Shown: piece after piece, positions 4,005 through 39,468 of the stretch
Numbering within the stretch: position 1 is the stretch's first letter
Layout of the letters: every line of letters starts with the position of its first letter
NCBI RefSeq assembly: GCF_018141525.1
Contig: NZ_CP064655.1
Coordinates: forward strand, 1-64,000
Length of the DNA stretch: 64,000 nucleotides
Source of the DNA: Miltoncostaea marina
GTDB lineage: Bacteria > Actinomycetota > Thermoleophilia > Miltoncostaeales > Miltoncostaeaceae
Direction of reading: 5' to 3'
The notes under the pieces: model-generated
What the model was told of the DNA's origin: nothing
The model's input: the letters and a program-made list of their open reading frames with translations, nothing else
Database searches by the model: none
Program-made: the position numbers and the translations under genes

Positions 4005-4506
4005 GCGGCCGCGCCGTCGCCGTCGCCGCAAGGATCCGCTCAGCGCCGCCGACGTCGTGCGCCGGTACCGGCGCGGGCCGGCCGCCGGCGCGGGACCGGG
4101 CCCGGCGGGCGCGGCAGCCGCCGCCTGGGCCGAAGTGGTGGGCGCCGCCGCCGCGGCCCACAGCGCCCCCGTGCGCCGCAGCCGGGCCGGCGTGCTGACG
4201 GTGGCCTGCTCGAGCGCGGCCTGGGCCCACGAGCTCACCGCGCGCCGCGAGGAGCTGACCGCGCGGCTGGCGGCGACGTGCCCGGAGGCCGGGGTCGCGG
4301 GGCTGCGGTTCGCCGTCGCCGACCACGTGCCGGGGGCCGCCCCGCCCCCGCCCGCGCCGCCCACGCCGCCGCCCCCGCCGACCGCCGGCGACCGCGCCCA
4401 CGGGACCGTGGCGGCGGCGGGCGTGGAGGACCCCCGGCTGCGCGAGCTCGTGGCCCGCGCGGCGGCCGCCGCCGCCCGGCGCAGAAGGGCCGCCGAACAC
4501 GACTGA
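3997..4506 (+). CDS. DciA-like DUF721 protein
   Basis: Members of the DUF721/DciA family load the replicative helicase in bacteria lacking DnaC or DnaI. The 169-residue product begins with a basic Arg-rich stretch, then the conserved core (about 14-110) with SAADVVRRY and the typical W-x-x-VVG and SSAAWAHEL elements. A Pro-rich linker (about 112-125) and an Ala/Arg-rich tail follow. The GTG at 3997 overlaps the end of recF by eight bases, implying translational coupling, and the position between recF and gyrB is the standard one for this family in Actinomycetota. Confidence 0.85.
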   Translation: MAERPRRRRRRKDPLSAADVVRRYRRGPAAGAGPGPAGAAAAAWAEVVGAAAAAHSAPVRRSRAGVLTVACSSAAWAHELTARREELTARLAATCPEAGVAGLRFAVADHVPGAAPPPPAPPTPPPPPTAGDRAHGTVAAAGVEDPRLRELVARAAAAAARRRRAAEHD

Positions 4507-4556
4507 TTTCCCTGCAAAGCGCGCAGATCGGAGGGCGTTCCGGCCTCTGGGGGTGC

Positions 4557-4562
4557 TAGACT
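4557..4562 (+). promoter_or_regulatory. Candidate -10 box for gyrB
   Basis: TAGACT lies in the short gap after the DUF721 gene. Initiation about seven bases downstream would give a leader of some 23 bases that contains a strong ribosome-binding site, unlike the leaderless genes elsewhere in the window. Confidence 0.45.
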
Positions 4563-4579
4563 TCCTCGAATCCCCGTAG

Positions 4580-7009
<2,430 letters not shown>

Positions 7010-7021
7010 GAGCCGCGACTA

Positions 7022-9568
<2,547 letters not shown>

Positions 9569-32076: not shown

Positions 32077-32880
32077 TCAGTCGCCCAGCCGGCGCACGAC
32101 GTGCAGCGCGCCGGGCGGCCCCGGCACCTCGATGTCGGCGGCCTCGCGCACCGCAGGGGGCACCTCGCCGCTCGCCACGGCCACGCCCAGCGCCACCTCG
32201 AGCGCCCCCTCCGACCGCATCGCCCGCAGGGCGCGCCAGGCGTCGGCGTCGGTGCGGTCGTCGCCGATGTAGACGGCCGCCCTGGCCCCGCTGCCGCGCA
32301 GCAGGGCGCGCACCGCGGTGCCCTTGTCGACCGCCACCGGCGGCCGCACCTCGAGCACCTCGCGGCCGGGCGTGGGCACCAGGCCGCGGTCGAGCGCCTC
32401 GGAGGCCACCTGCGCCAGCAGCAGCCGGGCCGCCTCGGGGTCGCGCGCGCCGCGCGCGTGGACGCTCAGCGTGGCGCCCTTCGGCTCCATGCGCAGGTCG
32501 CCCGGCGCGAGCCGCTCGGCCGGCCAGGCGGCGACGAACTCCGCGATCGCCTCGAGGTGCTCGGCGACGCCCTCGGCGAGCTCGGGCTCCGCGCCGGGGC
32601 GGTGCAGCTCCATGCCGTGGTTGCCGGCGTAGGCGCAGTCCTCCATGCCGACGATCCGCTCCAGGTCGGCGAGGCCGCGGCCGCTGACGAATCCGAGCAG
32701 CAGCGCGCGGTCGCGCAGGCGGGCGAGCGCCTCCCGCGCGCCGTCGGGCAGCCGCGCGAGCTCGGGCCGGGCCACGATGGGCGCGAGGGTGCCGTCCAGG
32801 TCGCAGAGGATCGCGGCCCGGTCCAGCCGCTCGCGGACCGGGGACAGCGCCTCCTCCAGGCGGGCATCGGGGGCGGCCAC
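32077..32880 (-). CDS. otsB: Trehalose-6-phosphate phosphatase
   Basis: HAD-type enzyme hydrolysing trehalose 6-phosphate to trehalose, a compatible solute. The 267-residue product has CDLDGTLAP (D27, D29), NHGMEL in YAGNHGMELHRP, the lysine of VDKGTAV, and YIGDDRTDADAW. GTG 32880 is chosen because TAGGGT ends eight bases upstream and the family aligns from there. No otsA lies nearby, so the partner synthase must be elsewhere. Confidence 0.92.
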   Translation of the reverse strand: MAAPDARLEEALSPVRERLDRAAILCDLDGTLAPIVARPELARLPDGAREALARLRDRALLLGFVSGRGLADLERIVGMEDCAYAGNHGMELHRPGAEPELAEGVAEHLEAIAEFVAAWPAERLAPGDLRMEPKGATLSVHARGARDPEAARLLLAQVASEALDRGLVPTPGREVLEVRPPVAVDKGTAVRALLRGSGARAAVYIGDDRTDADAWRALRAMRSEGALEVALGVAVASGEVPPAVREAADIEVPGPPGALHVVRRLGD

Positions 32881-32888
32881 GGGCCGCG

Positions 32889-32894
32889 ACCCTA
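32889..32894 (-). promoter_or_regulatory. Candidate -10 box for otsB
   Basis: TAGGGT on the minus strand ends eight bases before the GTG, a leaderless arrangement. Confidence 0.5.
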
Positions 32895-32923
32895 GCACCG
32901 CCCCGGCGGGCCCGGCCGCGCGC

Positions 32924-33271
32924 CTGCCGGCCCTCGCCACGATCGGCCTCGCCGCGGGCCTGTTCGCCTCGCTGTTCGGCGTGGGCGGCGGCATCGTGAT
33001 GGTGCCGCTGCTCATCGGCCTGCTCGCCTACGACGCGAAGGCGGCGACGGCGACCTCGCTCGCGGCCATCATCTTCACGGCGACCGTCGGCGCGGCCACC
33101 CACGGCGCGCTCGGCAACGTCCACTGGGGCACCGCGGCGCTCGTCGGCGTCCCCGCCATGGCCGGGCTGCTCGGCGGACTCGCCCTCAAGGAGCGCCTCT
33201 CGAGCCGCGCGCTGACGTACGCCTTCGCGGCGCTGCTGCTCGCCGTCGCCGTGCGGCTGGCGGTCGGCTGA
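32924..33271 (+). CDS. Half-length TauE/SafE membrane protein, first of a pair
   Basis: TauE/SafE proteins carry sulfite/organosulfonate-type anions and usually contain two repeats of about 120 residues. This product (115 residues from CTG 32924) is one such repeat, with LFGVGGGIVMVPLL near its start, SLAAIIFTATVG, and three or four hydrophobic segments. No ATG, GTG or TTG precedes the conserved part unless the gene runs far into otsB on the opposite strand, so CTG is proposed. The second half follows two bases after the stop. Confidence 0.72.
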   Translation: MPALATIGLAAGLFASLFGVGGGIVMVPLLIGLLAYDAKAATATSLAAIIFTATVGAATHGALGNVHWGTAALVGVPAMAGLLGGLALKERLSSRALTYAFAALLLAVAVRLAVG

Positions 33272-33273
33272 CC

Positions 33274-33648
33274 GTGCTGGACGCCGCCCTGGTCGTGCTG
33301 CTCGGCGCCGCCGCGGGGGCCCTCGCGGGCCTCTTCGGCGTGGGCGGCGGCATCATCTTCGTCCCCACGCTCACGCTGGTGCTCGGCCTGGGGCAGCTCG
33401 AGGCCGAGGCCACCTCCCTGCTCGCGATCGTGCCGGTGGCGGTGCTGGGGTCGTGGCGCCAAACGCGCGCGGGCACCGTGCGCTGGCGCGACGCGACCGC
33501 CATCGGCCTCGTGTCGGTCGGCACGGCGGTGGCCGGCGCGCTCATCGCCGACGCCGCGCCCGAGCGCGCCCTGCGGGTCGGGTTCGCGCTCGTGCTCGCG
33601 GGCACCGCCGTGCAGCTCGCGCTGCGCGCGCGGCGCTCCGGCGACTGA
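33274..33648 (+). CDS. Half-length TauE/SafE membrane protein, second of a pair
   Basis: The 124-residue product begins a new repeat with LFGVGGGIIFVPTL, then SLLAIVPVAVLGSWRQ, and ends RARRSGD after three or four membrane segments. Together with the preceding gene it makes up one normal two-repeat TauE/SafE transporter, so the two probably assemble as a heterodimer. GTG 33274 lies two bases after the first gene's stop. No frameshift is needed to explain the split, as the stop and new start are clean. Confidence 0.82.
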   Translation: MLDAALVVLLGAAAGALAGLFGVGGGIIFVPTLTLVLGLGQLEAEATSLLAIVPVAVLGSWRQTRAGTVRWRDATAIGLVSVGTAVAGALIADAAPERALRVGFALVLAGTAVQLALRARRSGD

Positions 33649-33725: not shown

Positions 33726-34889
33726 GTGCCCGTCCGGACGCATCCCGCGCGCCGCTGGCCGCTCGCGCTCGTGCTCGCCCTCGTCGCGGCCCTCGCCGCG
33801 GCCCCCTCGGCGAGCGCGCTCGAGATCGGCGCGGTCGTGGCCGGCGTCGAGGTCGGCGTGTCCGTCGGCGAGCCGGAGGCCCCGATCGTGGCCGTGAGCG
33901 CGGCCCCGTCGCCCGCCCCCGCCGCCGCCCAGCCGGCCGAGCCCCCCGCCGTCCCGGCTCCCGCCGCCCCGGCGGCCGCCGGGGCGGCGCCGCAGCCCGC
34001 GGCGCCCTCGCCGGCGCCGGCCGCCGTCCCCGACGCCGCGCGCACCCCCGCGCCGGCGCGGCGGCCGTCGCCGGCACCGCTGCTCCGGGCGCCCGCGCCC
34101 TCGTCGCCGACCCCGGCCGCGTCCGGGCCGGCACCGGCCTCGCCGGCGCCGCGGGTCGTGCGGCCGGTGCTCGAGCCGGTGCTGGGGCTGGCCGACGCCG
34201 CGGCGCGACCCGTCACGGCGCTCGTGGCGCCGGTCCTGGGGGTCCCCGCGGGCGGCGCGCCGGATGGCCCCGGGCTGGCGGCGCTCACGCGCCCGCTGCT
34301 CGGGCTGCTCGACACGACCCTCTCGCCGGCGCTGCGCATCGTCGACGTCGTCCCGCCGGTCGCCGGCGTCCCCCTCGCGCCCTCCGCCTCGTCCCCGCCG
34401 GCCCCGGGCGCGCCCGGGGCCGGCCCCGGGCCGGCCGCCGCGGCGCCGAGCGGGCCCGCCGCCGACCCGGCCGCCGCCGGCGCCGCGGCCGGTCCCTCGT
34501 GGGCCCCCTCGTCCGACGCGCCCGCGGGCGCCGCCCCGGCCCCCGAAGCCCCAGGCCTCCTCGGCGCGACCGCCGGGCCCGCCGCCCGGGCGGCCGTCGC
34601 CGCGACCGCGCCGCCCGGCGCGACCGCGGCCGCGCCCGGGGGCGCCGTGCGCGCCGAGGCGGCCTCAGGCGCGCCCGCCCCGCCGCCACGTCCCGCGCCC
34701 GCCCCCGCGGCCGCCCTGGCCCAGGCCGGCGCCGCGCCCGGCGCCTCCACAGGTCTGCTCCTGCTCCTCGCCGGCGTGCTGGCGGCCGTGCTGCCGCCGC
34801 GGCCGCCCGCGGGCCGCTCCGTGCGGCGCCCGCCGACCGGGCCCTGGCCCGCGGCAGCGCCGTCCCGCGCCTTCGAACGACCGGGCTAG
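33726..34889 (+). CDS. Secreted Pro/Ala-rich protein with C-terminal membrane anchor
   Basis: No known family is recognised. The 387-residue product has a signal peptide (cleavage near ASALE, about residue 31), long Pro-Ala-Ser low-complexity stretches, a central part of helical motifs with a PVLGL theme (RPVLEPVLGLADAA, RPLLGLLDTTLSPALR), and a C-terminal hydrophobic segment (GLLLLLAGVLAAVLPP) followed by Arg-rich residues. This fits a surface protein anchored by its tail. The next gene encodes a secreted repeat protein with a related PVGTVTGLVG theme, so the two may form a surface pair. Confidence 0.75.
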   Translation: MPVRTHPARRWPLALVLALVAALAAAPSASALEIGAVVAGVEVGVSVGEPEAPIVAVSAAPSPAPAAAQPAEPPAVPAPAAPAAAGAAPQPAAPSPAPAAVPDAARTPAPARRPSPAPLLRAPAPSSPTPAASGPAPASPAPRVVRPVLEPVLGLADAAARPVTALVAPVLGVPAGGAPDGPGLAALTRPLLGLLDTTLSPALRIVDVVPPVAGVPLAPSASSPPAPGAPGAGPGPAAAAPSGPAADPAAAGAAAGPSWAPSSDAPAGAAPAPEAPGLLGATAGPAARAAVAATAPPGATAAAPGGAVRAEAASGAPAPPPRPAPAPAAALAQAGAAPGASTGLLLLLAGVLAAVLPPRPPAGRSVRRPPTGPWPAAAPSRAFERPG

Positions 34890-34972
34890 CCGCCCCGGGC
34901 GCCGTCCGCCGACCGGCGGGCCGCGCCCCCTGCGAGCTCTGTCCGTTCGTTCATCGAAGGAGAACCCATCAC

Positions 34973-36592
34973 ATGCGACGCCATCTCGTGGCGCTCGGGG
35001 TCAGCGCGTTCTGCCTGACCCTGGCACCCGCCGTGGCCATGGCCGAGGGCGATGCCCCCGCGCCGCCGGCCCCGGCGGTCAGCCAGAGCAACACCGCCGC
35101 CGCCCCCGCGGCGGCCGGCAACTCCAACAGCACGGCGCAGTCGGCCGGCGGCGCCTCGTCGCAGTCGGCGACGACGGCGCAGGTCCTGCCGATCGCGGTC
35201 GCCCCGGCGGTCGCCCCGCAGGTGCTGCCGGTCAACGTCAACCTGCCCGTCCGGGTGCTCAGCCCCGGCGACAACGGCTCGGTCGACCAGTCCAACACCG
35301 CCGAGGCGCCCGCCACGGCGGCCAACGGCAACGAGACGTCCCAGGCGGCGGCCGGCGGCGCGAAGAAGGGCGCCCCGGCGTCCTCGCAGTCGGCGACGAC
35401 GGCGCAAATCCTGCCGATCGCGGCCGCCCCGGCGGTCGCCCCGCAGGTGCTCCCGGTCAACGTCAACGCGCCGGTGCGCGTGGCGAGCCCGGGTGACAAC
35501 GGCGACGTGACCCAGTCGAACACGGCCGCGGCGCCCGCCGAGGCCGGCAACAGCAACACCACCTCGCAGGGCGCCGGCGGCGCCGGCTCGCAGTCGGCGA
35601 CGACGGCGCAGGTGCTGCCGATCGCGGTCGCCCCGGCGGTCGCCCCGCAGGTGCTGCCGGTCAACGTCAACCTGCCCGTCCGGGTGCTCAGCCCCGGCGA
35701 CAACGGCTCGGTCGACCAGTCCAACACCGCCGAGGCCCCGGCCACCGCGGTGAACGACAACGCGACCCGCCAGGGCGCCGGCGCCAAGGGCGGCGCGGCG
35801 GGCGGCTCGCAGTCGGCGACGACCGCGCAGGTGCTGCCGGTCGCGCTCGCCCCGGCGATCGCGCCGCAGGTGCTGCCGCTCAACGTCAACGCGCCGATCG
35901 GCCTCGTCGACCAGCTGCCGGCCCTGCCGGTGGACCCCTTCGCGGCGCTGGCCGACCCGGTCGGCACCGTGACCGGCCTCGTCGGCACCCTTCCGCTGCC
36001 GGCCCTGCCGGTGGACCCGCTCGCGGTCCTCGCCGACCCGGTCGGGACGGTCACCGGGACGCTGGCGGACCCGGTCGGCACCGTGACCGGCCTGGCCGCC
36101 GGCCTGCCGCTGCCGGCCCTGCCGGCGCTGCCGGTCGACCCGTTCGCGGTCCTCGCCGACCCGGTCGGCACCGTGACGGGCCTCGTCGGCACGGCCACCG
36201 GCCTGGCCGCCGGCCTGCCGCTGCCGGCCCTGCCGGCGCTGCCGGTCGACCCGTTCGCGGTCCTCGCCGACCCGGTCGGCACCGTGACGGGCCTCGTCGG
36301 CACGGCCACCGGCCTGGCCGCCGGCCTGCCGCTGCCGGCCCTGCCGGCGCTGCCGGTCGACCCGTTCGCGGTCCTCGCCGACCCGGTCGGCACCGTGACG
36401 GGCCTCGTCGGCACGGCCACCGGCCTGGCCGCCGGCCTGCCGCTGCCGGCCCTGCCGGCGCTGCCGGTCGACCCGTTCGCGGTCCTCGCCGACCCGGTCG
36501 GCACGGTCGCGGGCATCCTCGCGGACCCGGTCGGCACGGTGACCGGCGTCGTCGGGAGCCTCCCGGTCGGCCTGCCGGTCGGCCTGATCTAG
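34973..36592 (+). CDS. Secreted repeat protein, possible chaplin/rodlin-like surface fibre
   Basis: The 539-residue product has a signal peptide (cleavage after AMA, residue 24). Residues about 40-300 hold four modules of 68-75 residues, each with QSATTAQVLP, APQVLPVNVN and then SPGDNG-x-V-x-QSNTA ending in Asn/Gln/Thr-rich sequence. The C-terminal part is built of LPALPVDPFAVLADPVGTVTG units, including three exact 37-residue copies (378-488) and a partial fourth. Beta-prone, Asn/Gln-rich modules without cysteine recall chaplins, rodlins or curlin repeats, but this is only resemblance. ATG 34973 follows AAGGAG. No LPXTG is present. Confidence 0.8.
   Translation: MRRHLVALGVSAFCLTLAPAVAMAEGDAPAPPAPAVSQSNTAAAPAAAGNSNSTAQSAGGASSQSATTAQVLPIAVAPAVAPQVLPVNVNLPVRVLSPGDNGSVDQSNTAEAPATAANGNETSQAAAGGAKKGAPASSQSATTAQILPIAAAPAVAPQVLPVNVNAPVRVASPGDNGDVTQSNTAAAPAEAGNSNTTSQGAGGAGSQSATTAQVLPIAVAPAVAPQVLPVNVNLPVRVLSPGDNGSVDQSNTAEAPATAVNDNATRQGAGAKGGAAGGSQSATTAQVLPVALAPAIAPQVLPLNVNAPIGLVDQLPALPVDPFAALADPVGTVTGLVGTLPLPALPVDPLAVLADPVGTVTGTLADPVGTVTGLAAGLPLPALPALPVDPFAVLADPVGTVTGLVGTATGLAAGLPLPALPALPVDPFAVLADPVGTVTGLVGTATGLAAGLPLPALPALPVDPFAVLADPVGTVTGLVGTATGLAAGLPLPALPALPVDPFAVLADPVGTVAGILADPVGTVTGVVGSLPVGLPVGLI
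36104..36500 (+). repeat. Exact 111-bp tandem repeat inside the secreted repeat gene
   Basis: Copies at 36104-36214, 36215-36325 and 36326-36436 are identical base for base, and a partial fourth copy starts at 36437. Such DNA identity implies recent duplication or ongoing homogenisation, so copy number may differ between strains and may be collapsed in short-read assemblies. Confidence 0.95.
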
Positions 36593-36650: not shown

Positions 36651-38012
36651 TCAGGCGGCCGGACCGTCCCCCCGCGGCGGCGCCTCGCGCACCGCGGCGA
36701 TCCGCCAGGGCGCGTCGTCCGGCCCGTCCAGCGCGAGCGTCCACGTGCCGTCGAAGCGCACCCGCCGGTCGCGCGAGCCGGCGATCAGGGTGAGCGTGGC
36801 GCGATCCTCGATGTAGCGGACGCCCTCGATCCGCATCCGCACCGCGACCGTGGGCGGGACCGCGTCGGCGTCGACGTCGACCAGCGTCACCGACAGCACC
36901 TCGGGGGCGCGCACCACCAGGCGTCCGTCCGGCGCGGGCGCCGTGGGGTGGAGCAGGTCGGTGAGCAGGCCCGGCCGGGCGATGCGCGCGAAGGCGGCGT
37001 CGTCGCCGTCCACCGCCTCCGCCCATGCCGCGACGCCGCGCCGGACCGTGGCCTCGATCACGTCCGGGTCGAACCGCTGGTCGACGAGCGACAGGTCGCG
37101 CGCCCTCGCGAGGGCCGAGCGCGCGCCCTCGTCGTCGAGGTCCGCGTGCCCGACCCCGGCCGGCACGGCGTCCGCCACGGCGGCGGCGACCCGCTCGCGG
37201 TCGGTCATGCGGCGGTCCTCGCTGGGGTCGGCCTCGATCGGCGCGGCGAGGTGGTGCTCGCCCTCGGCGTCCTGCTCGATCGACAGCAGCACCCAGCGGC
37301 CGTCGCGCCGGCCGAGCGTCCAGTACTCCCGGAGGTGGGTCTCGCCGGCGGGGTTCCCGGTGTGGGGGATGCGCCGGCCGGCCCGGTCGACCACCACGTC
37401 GTCGAGCTCGGCCGACACGCGCACGACGACCCGGTCCTCGGCCTGGCCCGCGCGGTTGGTGATCCCGACGTACTCCACCTCGTGCTCGCGCACGCCGACC
37501 CTGTTGCGCCAGCCCTTCGCGGCGAAGTCCTCCAGGCGCAGGCGCCACTCGGCCATCAGGTCCGCGCCCACCATCGCCGCCAGCGCGTCGCGGTCGTCTC
37601 GGTCCCACGCGGCCTGGACCGCGGCGAACAGGGCGGCGGCCTCCGCCCGCACGCGGTCGGCGGCGAAGACGGGATCGTCCTCGGCCGCCACGAGCGAGCG
37701 GCGCTCGACGTCCTCGCGGCGCGCGCGGCGCCGCGCCGCGGTGGCGCGGTCGCGGGTGCGCGCGTAGGCCCGGCTCCAGGTCTTCGTGCGGCGCTCCTGC
37801 ACCGCGCCCACCAGCAGCAGCACCGCGAACGCCCCGCCGGCCACCAGGTAGCCGCCGAGCCCGAACTCCGCTCCGCCGCCCGAGCCGCCACCACCGCCGC
37901 CGAAGCCGCCACCACCACCACCACCGAAGCCGCCGCTGCCGCCGCCGGCGGCGCCGAGCGCGGCCGGCGCGGACAGCGCCAGGGTCAGCAGGGCCGCGAG
38001 CGGGGCGCGCAG
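36651..38012 (-). CDS. Secreted/membrane Tim44-like domain protein, probable CTG start
   Basis: The protein (about 453 residues) has a signal-like N-terminus (RAPLAALLTLALSAPAALG), a striking Gly-only stretch (GGFGGGGGGGFGGGG), one membrane segment (GGYLVAGGAFAVLLLVGA), a basic linker and then two similar soluble halves. The first carries LEDFAAKGWRNRV and REHEVEYVGITN, typical of bacterial Tim44-like domains. Role unknown. No ATG, GTG or TTG lies between the nuoN stop and the signal sequence; CTG 38012, five bases after the nuoN stop, is the best start. An ATG/GTG-type alternative at 38126 would overlap nuoN by about 110 bases. It is probably a 3' member of the nuo transcript. Confidence 0.82.
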   Translation of the reverse strand: MRAPLAALLTLALSAPAALGAAGGGSGGFGGGGGGGFGGGGGGSGGGAEFGLGGYLVAGGAFAVLLLVGAVQERRTKTWSRAYARTRDRATAARRRARREDVERRSLVAAEDDPVFAADRVRAEAAALFAAVQAAWDRDDRDALAAMVGADLMAEWRLRLEDFAAKGWRNRVGVREHEVEYVGITNRAGQAEDRVVVRVSAELDDVVVDRAGRRIPHTGNPAGETHLREYWTLGRRDGRWVLLSIEQDAEGEHHLAAPIEADPSEDRRMTDRERVAAAVADAVPAGVGHADLDDEGARSALARARDLSLVDQRFDPDVIEATVRRGVAAWAEAVDGDDAAFARIARPGLLTDLLHPTAPAPDGRLVVRAPEVLSVTLVDVDADAVPPTVAVRMRIEGVRYIEDRATLTLIAGSRDRRVRFDGTWTLALDGPDDAPWRIAAVREAPPRGDGPAA

Positions 38013-38016
38013 CCCG

Positions 38017-39468
38017 CTACGGGGCGAGCAGGGCCTCCGCGGCGCCACGGCAGGCGTCCAGGACCGGCGAAGCGAGCAGGGTGAGCGCGATGACCGCGAC
38101 CGCCGAGCCGACTGTGGCCAGGCCAACCGGCCCCGGCACGGCGAACGTCCGGCGCGCGGCCCCGTCGAGGGGCGGCGCCCAGGTCACCCAGACCACCCGC
38201 AGGTAGTAGCCGAGGCTGATCATGCTGCCGACGGCGCCGACGATCGCCAGCCAGGTCAGGTCGGCCTCCACGGCCGAGCCGAACAGCAGGAACTTGCCCA
38301 CGAACCCGGACAGCGGCGGGAAGCCGGCCAGCGAGAGCATGGCCACGGTCATCACCACGCCCAGCACGGGACGGGCGCGGCCGTAGCCGGTGAGCGCCGC
38401 CACCGTGTCGCCGTCCTCCACCTCGCGCTCCCGGATGATGACCACGGCGAAGGCCGCGAGGGTCATGGCCGCGTACGCGAGCAGGTAGTAGAGGGTGGCC
38501 TCGGCGCCGGCGATGCCGCCCGTGGCGACGCCGATCAGCAGGTAGCCGGCCTGGGCGATGCTCGAGTAGGCGAGCAGGCGCTTCATGTTCGACTGCACGA
38601 GCGCCGCGATGTTGCCGACCGCCATGCTCGCCACGGCGACGACCGCGATCACGACCGACCAGTCGTCCTGCAGGTCGGGCATCACGCCCGAGAAGACGCG
38701 CAGGAAGGCCGCCAGGGCCGCGGCCTTGACCGCGGTCGACATGAAGGCGGTGACGGTCGTCGGCGCGCCCTCGTAGACGTCGGGCGTCCACATGTGGAAC
38801 GGCACGGCGGAGGCCTTGAACGCGAGGCCCGCGGCGATCAGCACCATCGCCGCCAGCACCAGCGGCTCGCCGGTGAACGAGGTCCCCTCGAGCTCGCGGC
38901 CGATGTCGGCGAGCCGGATCGAGCCGGTGGCGCCGAACAGCAGGGTGAGCCCGTAGAGCAGGATCGCCGCCCCGACGCTGCCGACGATGAGGTACTTGAG
39001 GCCGCTCTCCAGCGAGCGCTCGCGCCACACCTCGAGCGCGCAGAGCACGTACAGGGCCACCGAGAGGATCTCGATGCCCAGGAAGATCATGATCAGGTCG
39101 CCCGCGCCGGCCACGAGCATCATGCCGGTGGCCGAGATCAGGATCAGGCCGACGTACTCCCCGCGCCGGTCCACTGCGGCCGGCTCGCGCCAGGCGAGCA
39201 GGATCGTGACGGCCGCGGCCGCCAGGAAGAGGATGTTGAGCAGCAGGCTGAAGCGGTCGGCCCGCAGTCCGCCGCCGAGCGAGTCCTGGCGCTCGCCCCA
39301 CAGCAGCAGCGACATGACGATCGCCGCGGTGATGCCGGCCATGCCGACGAGCGCGGGGCCGTGGCGGCGCGCGAGGCGACCGGGCCACAGTCCGGCGCCG
39401 AGGGCCAGCGTGGCCGCGCCCGCGGTGATCATGACCGGGGTCGCCGCGACGACGTTCAGCGCGCTCAG
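38017..39468 (-). CDS. nuoN: NADH-quinone oxidoreductase subunit N, probable CTG start
   Basis: Antiporter-like proton-pumping subunit of the membrane arm of complex I. The product has about 14 membrane helices. Conserved elements include FKASAVPFHMWTPDVYEG, NMKRLLAYSSIAQAGY and FPPLSGFVGK. CTG 39468 overlaps the nuoM stop as CTGA, exactly parallel to the ATGA and GTGA overlaps elsewhere in the operon, and gives 483 residues. ATG 39432 gives 471 but leaves a 32-base gap to nuoM's stop and trims the first helix region. Confidence 0.94.
   Translation of the reverse strand: MSALNVVAATPVMITAGAATLALGAGLWPGRLARRHGPALVGMAGITAAIVMSLLLWGERQDSLGGGLRADRFSLLLNILFLAAAAVTILLAWREPAAVDRRGEYVGLILISATGMMLVAGAGDLIMIFLGIEILSVALYVLCALEVWRERSLESGLKYLIVGSVGAAILLYGLTLLFGATGSIRLADIGRELEGTSFTGEPLVLAAMVLIAAGLAFKASAVPFHMWTPDVYEGAPTTVTAFMSTAVKAAALAAFLRVFSGVMPDLQDDWSVVIAVVAVASMAVGNIAALVQSNMKRLLAYSSIAQAGYLLIGVATGGIAGAEATLYYLLAYAAMTLAAFAVVIIREREVEDGDTVAALTGYGRARPVLGVVMTVAMLSLAGFPPLSGFVGKFLLFGSAVEADLTWLAIVGAVGSMISLGYYLRVVWVTWAPPLDGAARRTFAVPGPVGLATVGSAVAVIALTLLASPVLDACRGAAEALLAP

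Follow-up and report, generated by a model that had tools for sequence, protein, structure and literature searches.

The question raised by two adjoining genes of Miltoncostaea marina, here called p1 and p2, is whether their secreted, low-complexity products act together at the cell surface, and as what. Both lie in the window analysed here, the first 64,000 nucleotides of contig NZ_CP064655.1, where an earlier note, made from the letters alone, had described a neighbouring pair with signal peptides, p2 carrying modules and a tail and p1 a Pro/Ala-rich region and a C-terminal anchor. Translation, composition and hidden Markov model (HMM) searches agree with that description. We find that the pair recurs, with adjacency and gene order intact, in several families within the class Thermoleophilia. 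An anchored nucleator or tether acting with a secreted beta-solenoid, amyloid-like polymer is in our judgment the best explanation of the pair, and a fairly probable one.

The p2 module and its family

The repeat gene comprises the following features.

34973..36592 (+): p2, secreted repeat protein without anchor, 539 residues, ATG start (translation, start and Shine-Dalgarno site, family HMM)
35078..35233 (+): module 1, partial, without the leading N-x-N-x-x-V-R-V arm (HMM domains)
35234..35455 (+): module 2 (HMM domain, 68.8 bits)
35459..35659 (+): module 3 (HMM domain, 54.7 bits)
35663..35878 (+): module 4 (HMM domain, 62.4 bits)
35915..36589 (+): hydrophobic Leu/Pro/Val tail, about residues 315–539, with six LP(ALP)VDP repeats (repeat positions)

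The p2 product begins with a signal-peptide-like segment (residues 1–24) and continues into modules of 68–75 residues, three copies being 69–79% identical to the reference copy. QSNTA recurs at residues 38, 106, 181 and 249, and SQSATTAQ at 63, 138, 206 and 279. A better frame for the module starts at N-x-N-x-P-V-R-V-L-S-P-G-D-N-G-x-V-x-Q-S-N, which leaves copy 1 partial. The tail contains a 111-bp tandem array (36074–36504; 3.9 copies, 99% match by Tandem Repeats Finder). The pair is present as a single copy in the genome, which is one 3.37-Mb contig.

Neither p1 nor p2 has a Pfam family above cut-off or an NCBIfam match, and tblastn with p2 and with its modules found no true homologue in 40 relatives or in a scan of GTDB contigs. 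Sub-threshold tblastn matches (E about 0.02) were ruled out as unrelated frames, and searching without composition correction returned only noise in GC-rich DNA. A profile of the four p2 modules found multi-module open reading frames (ORFs) in distant Thermoleophilia families, and 32 aligned modules, those of distant families of the class included, provided the family profile. The family pattern is one of tandem modules of about 73 residues, N-x-N...V-R-V-L-S-P-G..G-x-V-x-Q-x-N...N-x-N-x-x-x-Q, with 12 columns invariant across the 32 modules. p2 conforms to this pattern and matches the family HMM with E = 1.8e-59; its membership is not circular, because an HMM made from relatives alone, with the window excluded, still gives E = 7e-49 (the next-best window ORF reaches 0.7). 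On profile evidence, the p2 module is a member of a family scattered through Thermoleophilia that is undescribed as far as the libraries we searched reach.

The 32-module profile matches 22 of the 399 Thermoleophilia genomes sampled, that of M. marina counted, in 15 of 128 genera. One further genome matched in a sample of 396 from the phylum, and M. marina was the sole match among 42 genomes of its own family. The distribution is patchy, with the window copy isolated within its family, presumably via horizontal transfer or loss elsewhere. PDB holds no sequence match to the module profile, and the open literature searched yielded no study of amyloids or fibres in Thermoleophilia.

An anchored partner precedes the repeat gene

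The gene upstream of p2 has these features.

33726..34889 (+): p1, anchored partner, 387 residues, GTG start (translation, composition, hydropathy, C-terminus, gene order)
about 33726–33818 (+): predicted signal peptide of p1 (N-terminal signal-like segment)
34752..34793 (+): C-terminal hydrophobic (membrane) segment of p1, about residues 343–356 (hydropathy)
34875..34889 (+): ERPG-stop terminus of p1 (C-terminal alignment with the anchored partners of relatives, which share the terminus)

The p1 product is 31% Ala and 22% Pro, has no Cys, and bears a PVLGL/PVTALVAP stretch in its Pro/Ala-rich stalk. Its hydrophobic segment (mean hydropathy 2.19 across 18 residues, 49 residues before the end) is followed by basic residues and an ...AFERPG end.

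At 18 loci in relatives from several Thermoleophilia families (L072, L075–L081, L113, L116–L119, L121, L122 and L124–L126), an anchored ORF lies immediately 5' of the repeat gene, on the same strand and in the same order as in the window; some of these loci share a genus, and the 18 are not independent events. The co-occurrence that the earlier note had proposed looking for is present in these relatives. The repeat genes at these loci have a Shine-Dalgarno site and a signal peptide similar to the window's. The number of modules per repeat gene is nearly free, from 4 to 13, with no obvious capping domain.

The upstream partners have a C-terminal hydrophobic segment (weaker in L077), a net basic stretch in most cases, and a PG end, commonly (E/D)xPG-stop. 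Because partners were recognised partly by the PG end, its invariance in the C-terminal alignment is partly selected; adjacency is unaffected. Most partners hold between one and about eight copies of the module found in the repeat protein, with E from about 1e-7 to 1e-72. Such sharing is common, not universal: the L072, L117 and L118 partners lack the module, and their AP-V-T-rich stretches resemble, by eye, the PVLGL/PVTALVAP stretch of p1. Proteins of one genus, g34, had been candidates for p1–p2 fusions, a reading we rejected since in wider loci their genes are followed directly by a second repeat gene, making these proteins anchored partners with more modules.

The terminus was followed in a check of four genomes limited to the exact letters ERPG. 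The M. marina genome has three ERPG-stop matches, p1 being the sole long ORF among them; a genome with the pair (G227) likewise has three, the sole long ORF being the pair's; and a congener without the pair (G001) has three, none long. A general sorting signal was rejected on this basis, given that M. marina and G227 have a long ERPG-stop ORF only in the pair, and the (E/D)xPG tail looks, from these sequences, dedicated to the pair system.

The two genes are separated by a short gap.

34890..34972 (+): p1–p2 gap, 83 nucleotides, with a stem-loop at about 34891–34934 and the Shine-Dalgarno sequence AAGGAG at 34957–34962

In relatives the stop-to-start gap is 60–131 nucleotides. The window stem-loop has a folding z of -2.6 and no T tract. 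Across 16 pair gaps the mean folding z is -2.03; random windows taken from the same loci average -0.23 (p = 4e-7), an imperfect control because those windows are mostly coding. The stem-loop may act in message stability or in setting the subunit ratio.

Several further features accompany the pair in relatives. Just 3' of the repeat gene, seven of them carry a third secreted gene, Ig/Fn3-like with a YYNVQLF-type C-terminal domain. It is absent beside the window pair, and the M. marina genome has several weak matches to the domain elsewhere.

L076:8725-10665: Ig/Fn3-like third gene
L077:6939-8954: Ig/Fn3-like third gene
L078:8205-9845: Ig/Fn3-like third gene
L080:7103-9328: Ig/Fn3-like third gene
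L081:8335-9501: Ig/Fn3-like third gene
L113:5013-6773: Ig/Fn3-like third gene
L116 oriented 5939-7633: Ig/Fn3-like third gene

Many anchored partners (L075–L080, L121, L123) have Trp-alternating stretches (for example WTWTW and NWNWNW) between module cores and stalk. L114:4813-7083 (+) and L115 oriented 4320-7496 are paralogous, very Asn/Gln/Ser-rich repeat genes with 10–13 domain hits, from a genus that also owns a standard pair. The earlier note had remarked that the modules lack cysteines; this is right for p2, whose sole Cys lies inside the signal peptide, and mostly right for the family, with Cys-containing repeats in some second repeat genes (L067/L124, L069/L126, L122). Those repeats have QNAVNANVPVSIAGG cores and are chaplin-like by eye, and no chaplin family matched where scanned (L067).

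The module is predicted to form beta-solenoid layers

Entropy across the 32 aligned modules strictly alternates (i, i+2) in columns 17–43 and 52–72, at 0.71 versus 2.66 bits in the first stretch and 0.90 versus 2.86 in the second, an alternation that 20,000 shuffles never equalled. On the conserved face the residues run V-Q-N-x-A-A-A-N-N-T-Q-A-Q-Q and then Q-A-Q-A-N-Q-A-A-A-A-Q, and an N-x-N-x-x-V-R-V-L-S-P-G-D-D-G arm precedes the two stretches. This is the pattern expected of two long beta-strands bearing an Asn/Gln/Ala ladder, with a Gly-rich variable loop between them.

AlphaFold2 models both the window modules (predicted local distance difference test score [pLDDT] 76.3, predicted template modelling score [pTM] 0.72) and those of L077 (pLDDT 73.2, pTM 0.60; each module with strands about 27, 24 and 9 residues long) as an all-beta repeat, and so not as the disorder alone that the earlier note had named as refuting. 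The top Foldseek match for both models is the Pseudomonas amyloid FapC, at an E of about 0.02 that is not significant. By VIA-align, FapC scores Z 5.5 with the window model and 2.2 with the L077 model, and the CsgA fibril 8enq scores 4.4 and 5.0, below unrelated beta-helices; adhesins and ice-binding solenoids are listed at lower Z. Models and fold matches together support a beta-solenoid and are compatible with amyloid without proving it.

Weighing a proposed anchored-plus-polymer system

In the explanation we favour, p1 after export would stay fixed in the membrane through its C-terminal segment together with the (E/D)xPG tail and expose its Pro/Ala-rich stalk outside; p2 would be exported without an anchor. 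Each module of about 73 residues would form one beta-solenoid layer, with the Asn/Gln/Ala ladder on its conserved face, and modules would stack within and between p2 molecules into an amyloid-like fibre or coat. Since the module also occurs in most anchored partners, the partner in most relatives would template or tether this fibre at the cell surface. The module-free p1 of M. marina may act via its hydrophobic stretch, perhaps with the hydrophobic tail of p2.

The earlier note's idea of a two-component surface coat, one component anchored and one polymerising, is strengthened because most anchored relatives carry the module of the polymer candidate, and the adjacent co-occurrence and predicted beta repeats also speak for it; polymerisation, amyloid character and nucleation are what we infer from these.

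Several observations weigh against this explanation. p1 has zero module copies in a HMMER search with every filter off, the p2 modules are diverged with proline-rich second halves, and the repeat loci L114 and L115 have no (E/D)xPG partner upstream. On the structural side, each AlphaFold2 run gave one confident model of five from 9–10 alignment rows, the SufD beta-helix (Z 6.7) stands above FapC for the window model, and all VIA-align fold scores fall in the tool's middling range.

Some of these observations lend themselves to a different account, unlikely in our view yet the best of the competitors, in which the repeat protein would serve as an adhesin or wall coat, a beta-solenoid that is not amyloid: each chain would form a rod by itself, kept near the cell by its anchored partner without end-to-end polymerisation. 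The rank of SufD over FapC and the presence of adhesins and ice-binding solenoids in the same list would fit such a rod, and the Ig/Fn3-like protein encoded downstream in seven relatives is in keeping with an adhesive cluster at the surface. The nearly free module number and lack of an obvious cap argue against it, however, and templating suits a partner that usually shares the module better than ordinary binding does.

Considerably less probable is that p1 and p2 serve as disordered spacers that span the wall, rich in Pro/Ala and Asn/Gln, with repeats drifting under weak selection and an adjacency that reflects shared regulation only. Low complexity, the Pro/Ala-rich p1, the patchy distribution and the partly degenerate window modules are as this would have it, whereas the 12 invariant columns, the strict alternation, the all-beta prediction and the sharing of modules with the partner are not. 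That one or both ORFs are spurious frames, as a GC content of 75% and long overlapping ORFs in other frames might suggest, is scarcely credible given cross-family protein homology, conserved gene order, Shine-Dalgarno sites, signal peptides and third-position GC of 96–99% in the p1 and p2 frames.

The anchored-plus-polymer explanation has precedents. In FapC every imperfect repeat makes up one cross-beta layer, with conserved Asn and Gln holding it and linkers leading to the next (PMC12392863); CsgB and FapB act as nucleators, and the Fap nucleator and polymer have their repeat in common (PMC7582709). The pair resembles FapB/FapC in its imperfect Asn/Gln repeats and, in most relatives, in a repeat shared by candidate nucleator and polymer, a likeness drawn from the published description and from a fold match short of significance; the sequence scans were general Pfam and NCBIfam ones. 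It differs in that Fap relies on outer-membrane export in a diderm, whereas the Thermoleophilia pair is actinobacterial, with a membrane-anchored partner and a module of about 73 residues. CsgB/CsgA likewise combine a nucleator and a polymer with related repeats and a conserved Gln/Asn ladder, although curlin repeats are short; Pfam gave no curlin match in p2 or seven relatives at E up to 1, and no csg export genes were seen in the loci read.

Among actinobacteria, the long chaplins of Streptomyces, which have a C-terminal wall anchor, have been proposed to tether short chaplins via co-assembly (PMC5618241). This split between anchored few-domain (ChpA–C) and secreted (ChpD–H) proteins parallels that between the anchored few-module and secreted many-module members of the pair. 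The Thermoleophilia modules are longer, however, and mostly lack Cys, and anchored chaplins use a sortase signal, whereas reading the C-termini of p1 and its counterparts revealed no LPxTG-like motif, these ending in the hydrophobic segment and (E/D)xPG. PF03777 (ChpA-C) had no match over cut-off in the M. marina genome and none by Pfam in p2 or the relatives. For the chaplins and curlins to which the earlier note likened the modules, sequence membership is not supported. Rodlins, also two secreted actinobacterial proteins, form a fibrous outer layer; RdlA and RdlB are >90% similar to one another (PMC5618241), unlike p1 and p2, of which p1 is anchored.

On a broader proposal we are closely divided, leaning slightly against it: that the class Thermoleophilia possesses a functional-amyloid system of its own, without sequence relation to chaplins or curli, in which the module would be one cross-beta layer and the anchored (E/D)xPG partner would nucleate or tether, the window pair being a divergent subtype whose anchor lacks modules and whose polymer has a hydrophobic tail. 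The kind of system, an anchored and a polymerising component of a surface fibre, is already known; the family, module and terminus appear undescribed within the libraries searched. The surface of Thermoleophilia is little studied, and the pair, if we are right, would be a separate anchored-plus-polymer coat system, one to set naturally beside FapB/FapC and CsgB/CsgA when asking how cross-beta layers arise from imperfect repeats. A further question is what recognises the (E/D)xPG terminus, which looks dedicated to the pair.

Neighbouring genes

A Tim44-domain protein is encoded at 36651–38126 (-), beside nuo-like genes, with 67–68% identity in two congeners. Beyond it lie unrelated genes, different in each of the two. 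Because the Tim44 gene is kept and its flanking DNA differs by congener, the edge beside p2 is a variable site, and synteny within the genus is uninformative for the pair. On the other side, two adjoining ORFs at 32645–33648 (+) correspond to the two halves of TauE/SafE (PF01925), with profile positions 119–237 in the first and 2–112 in the second, which points to a TauE-type exporter divided into two half-length genes in swapped order.
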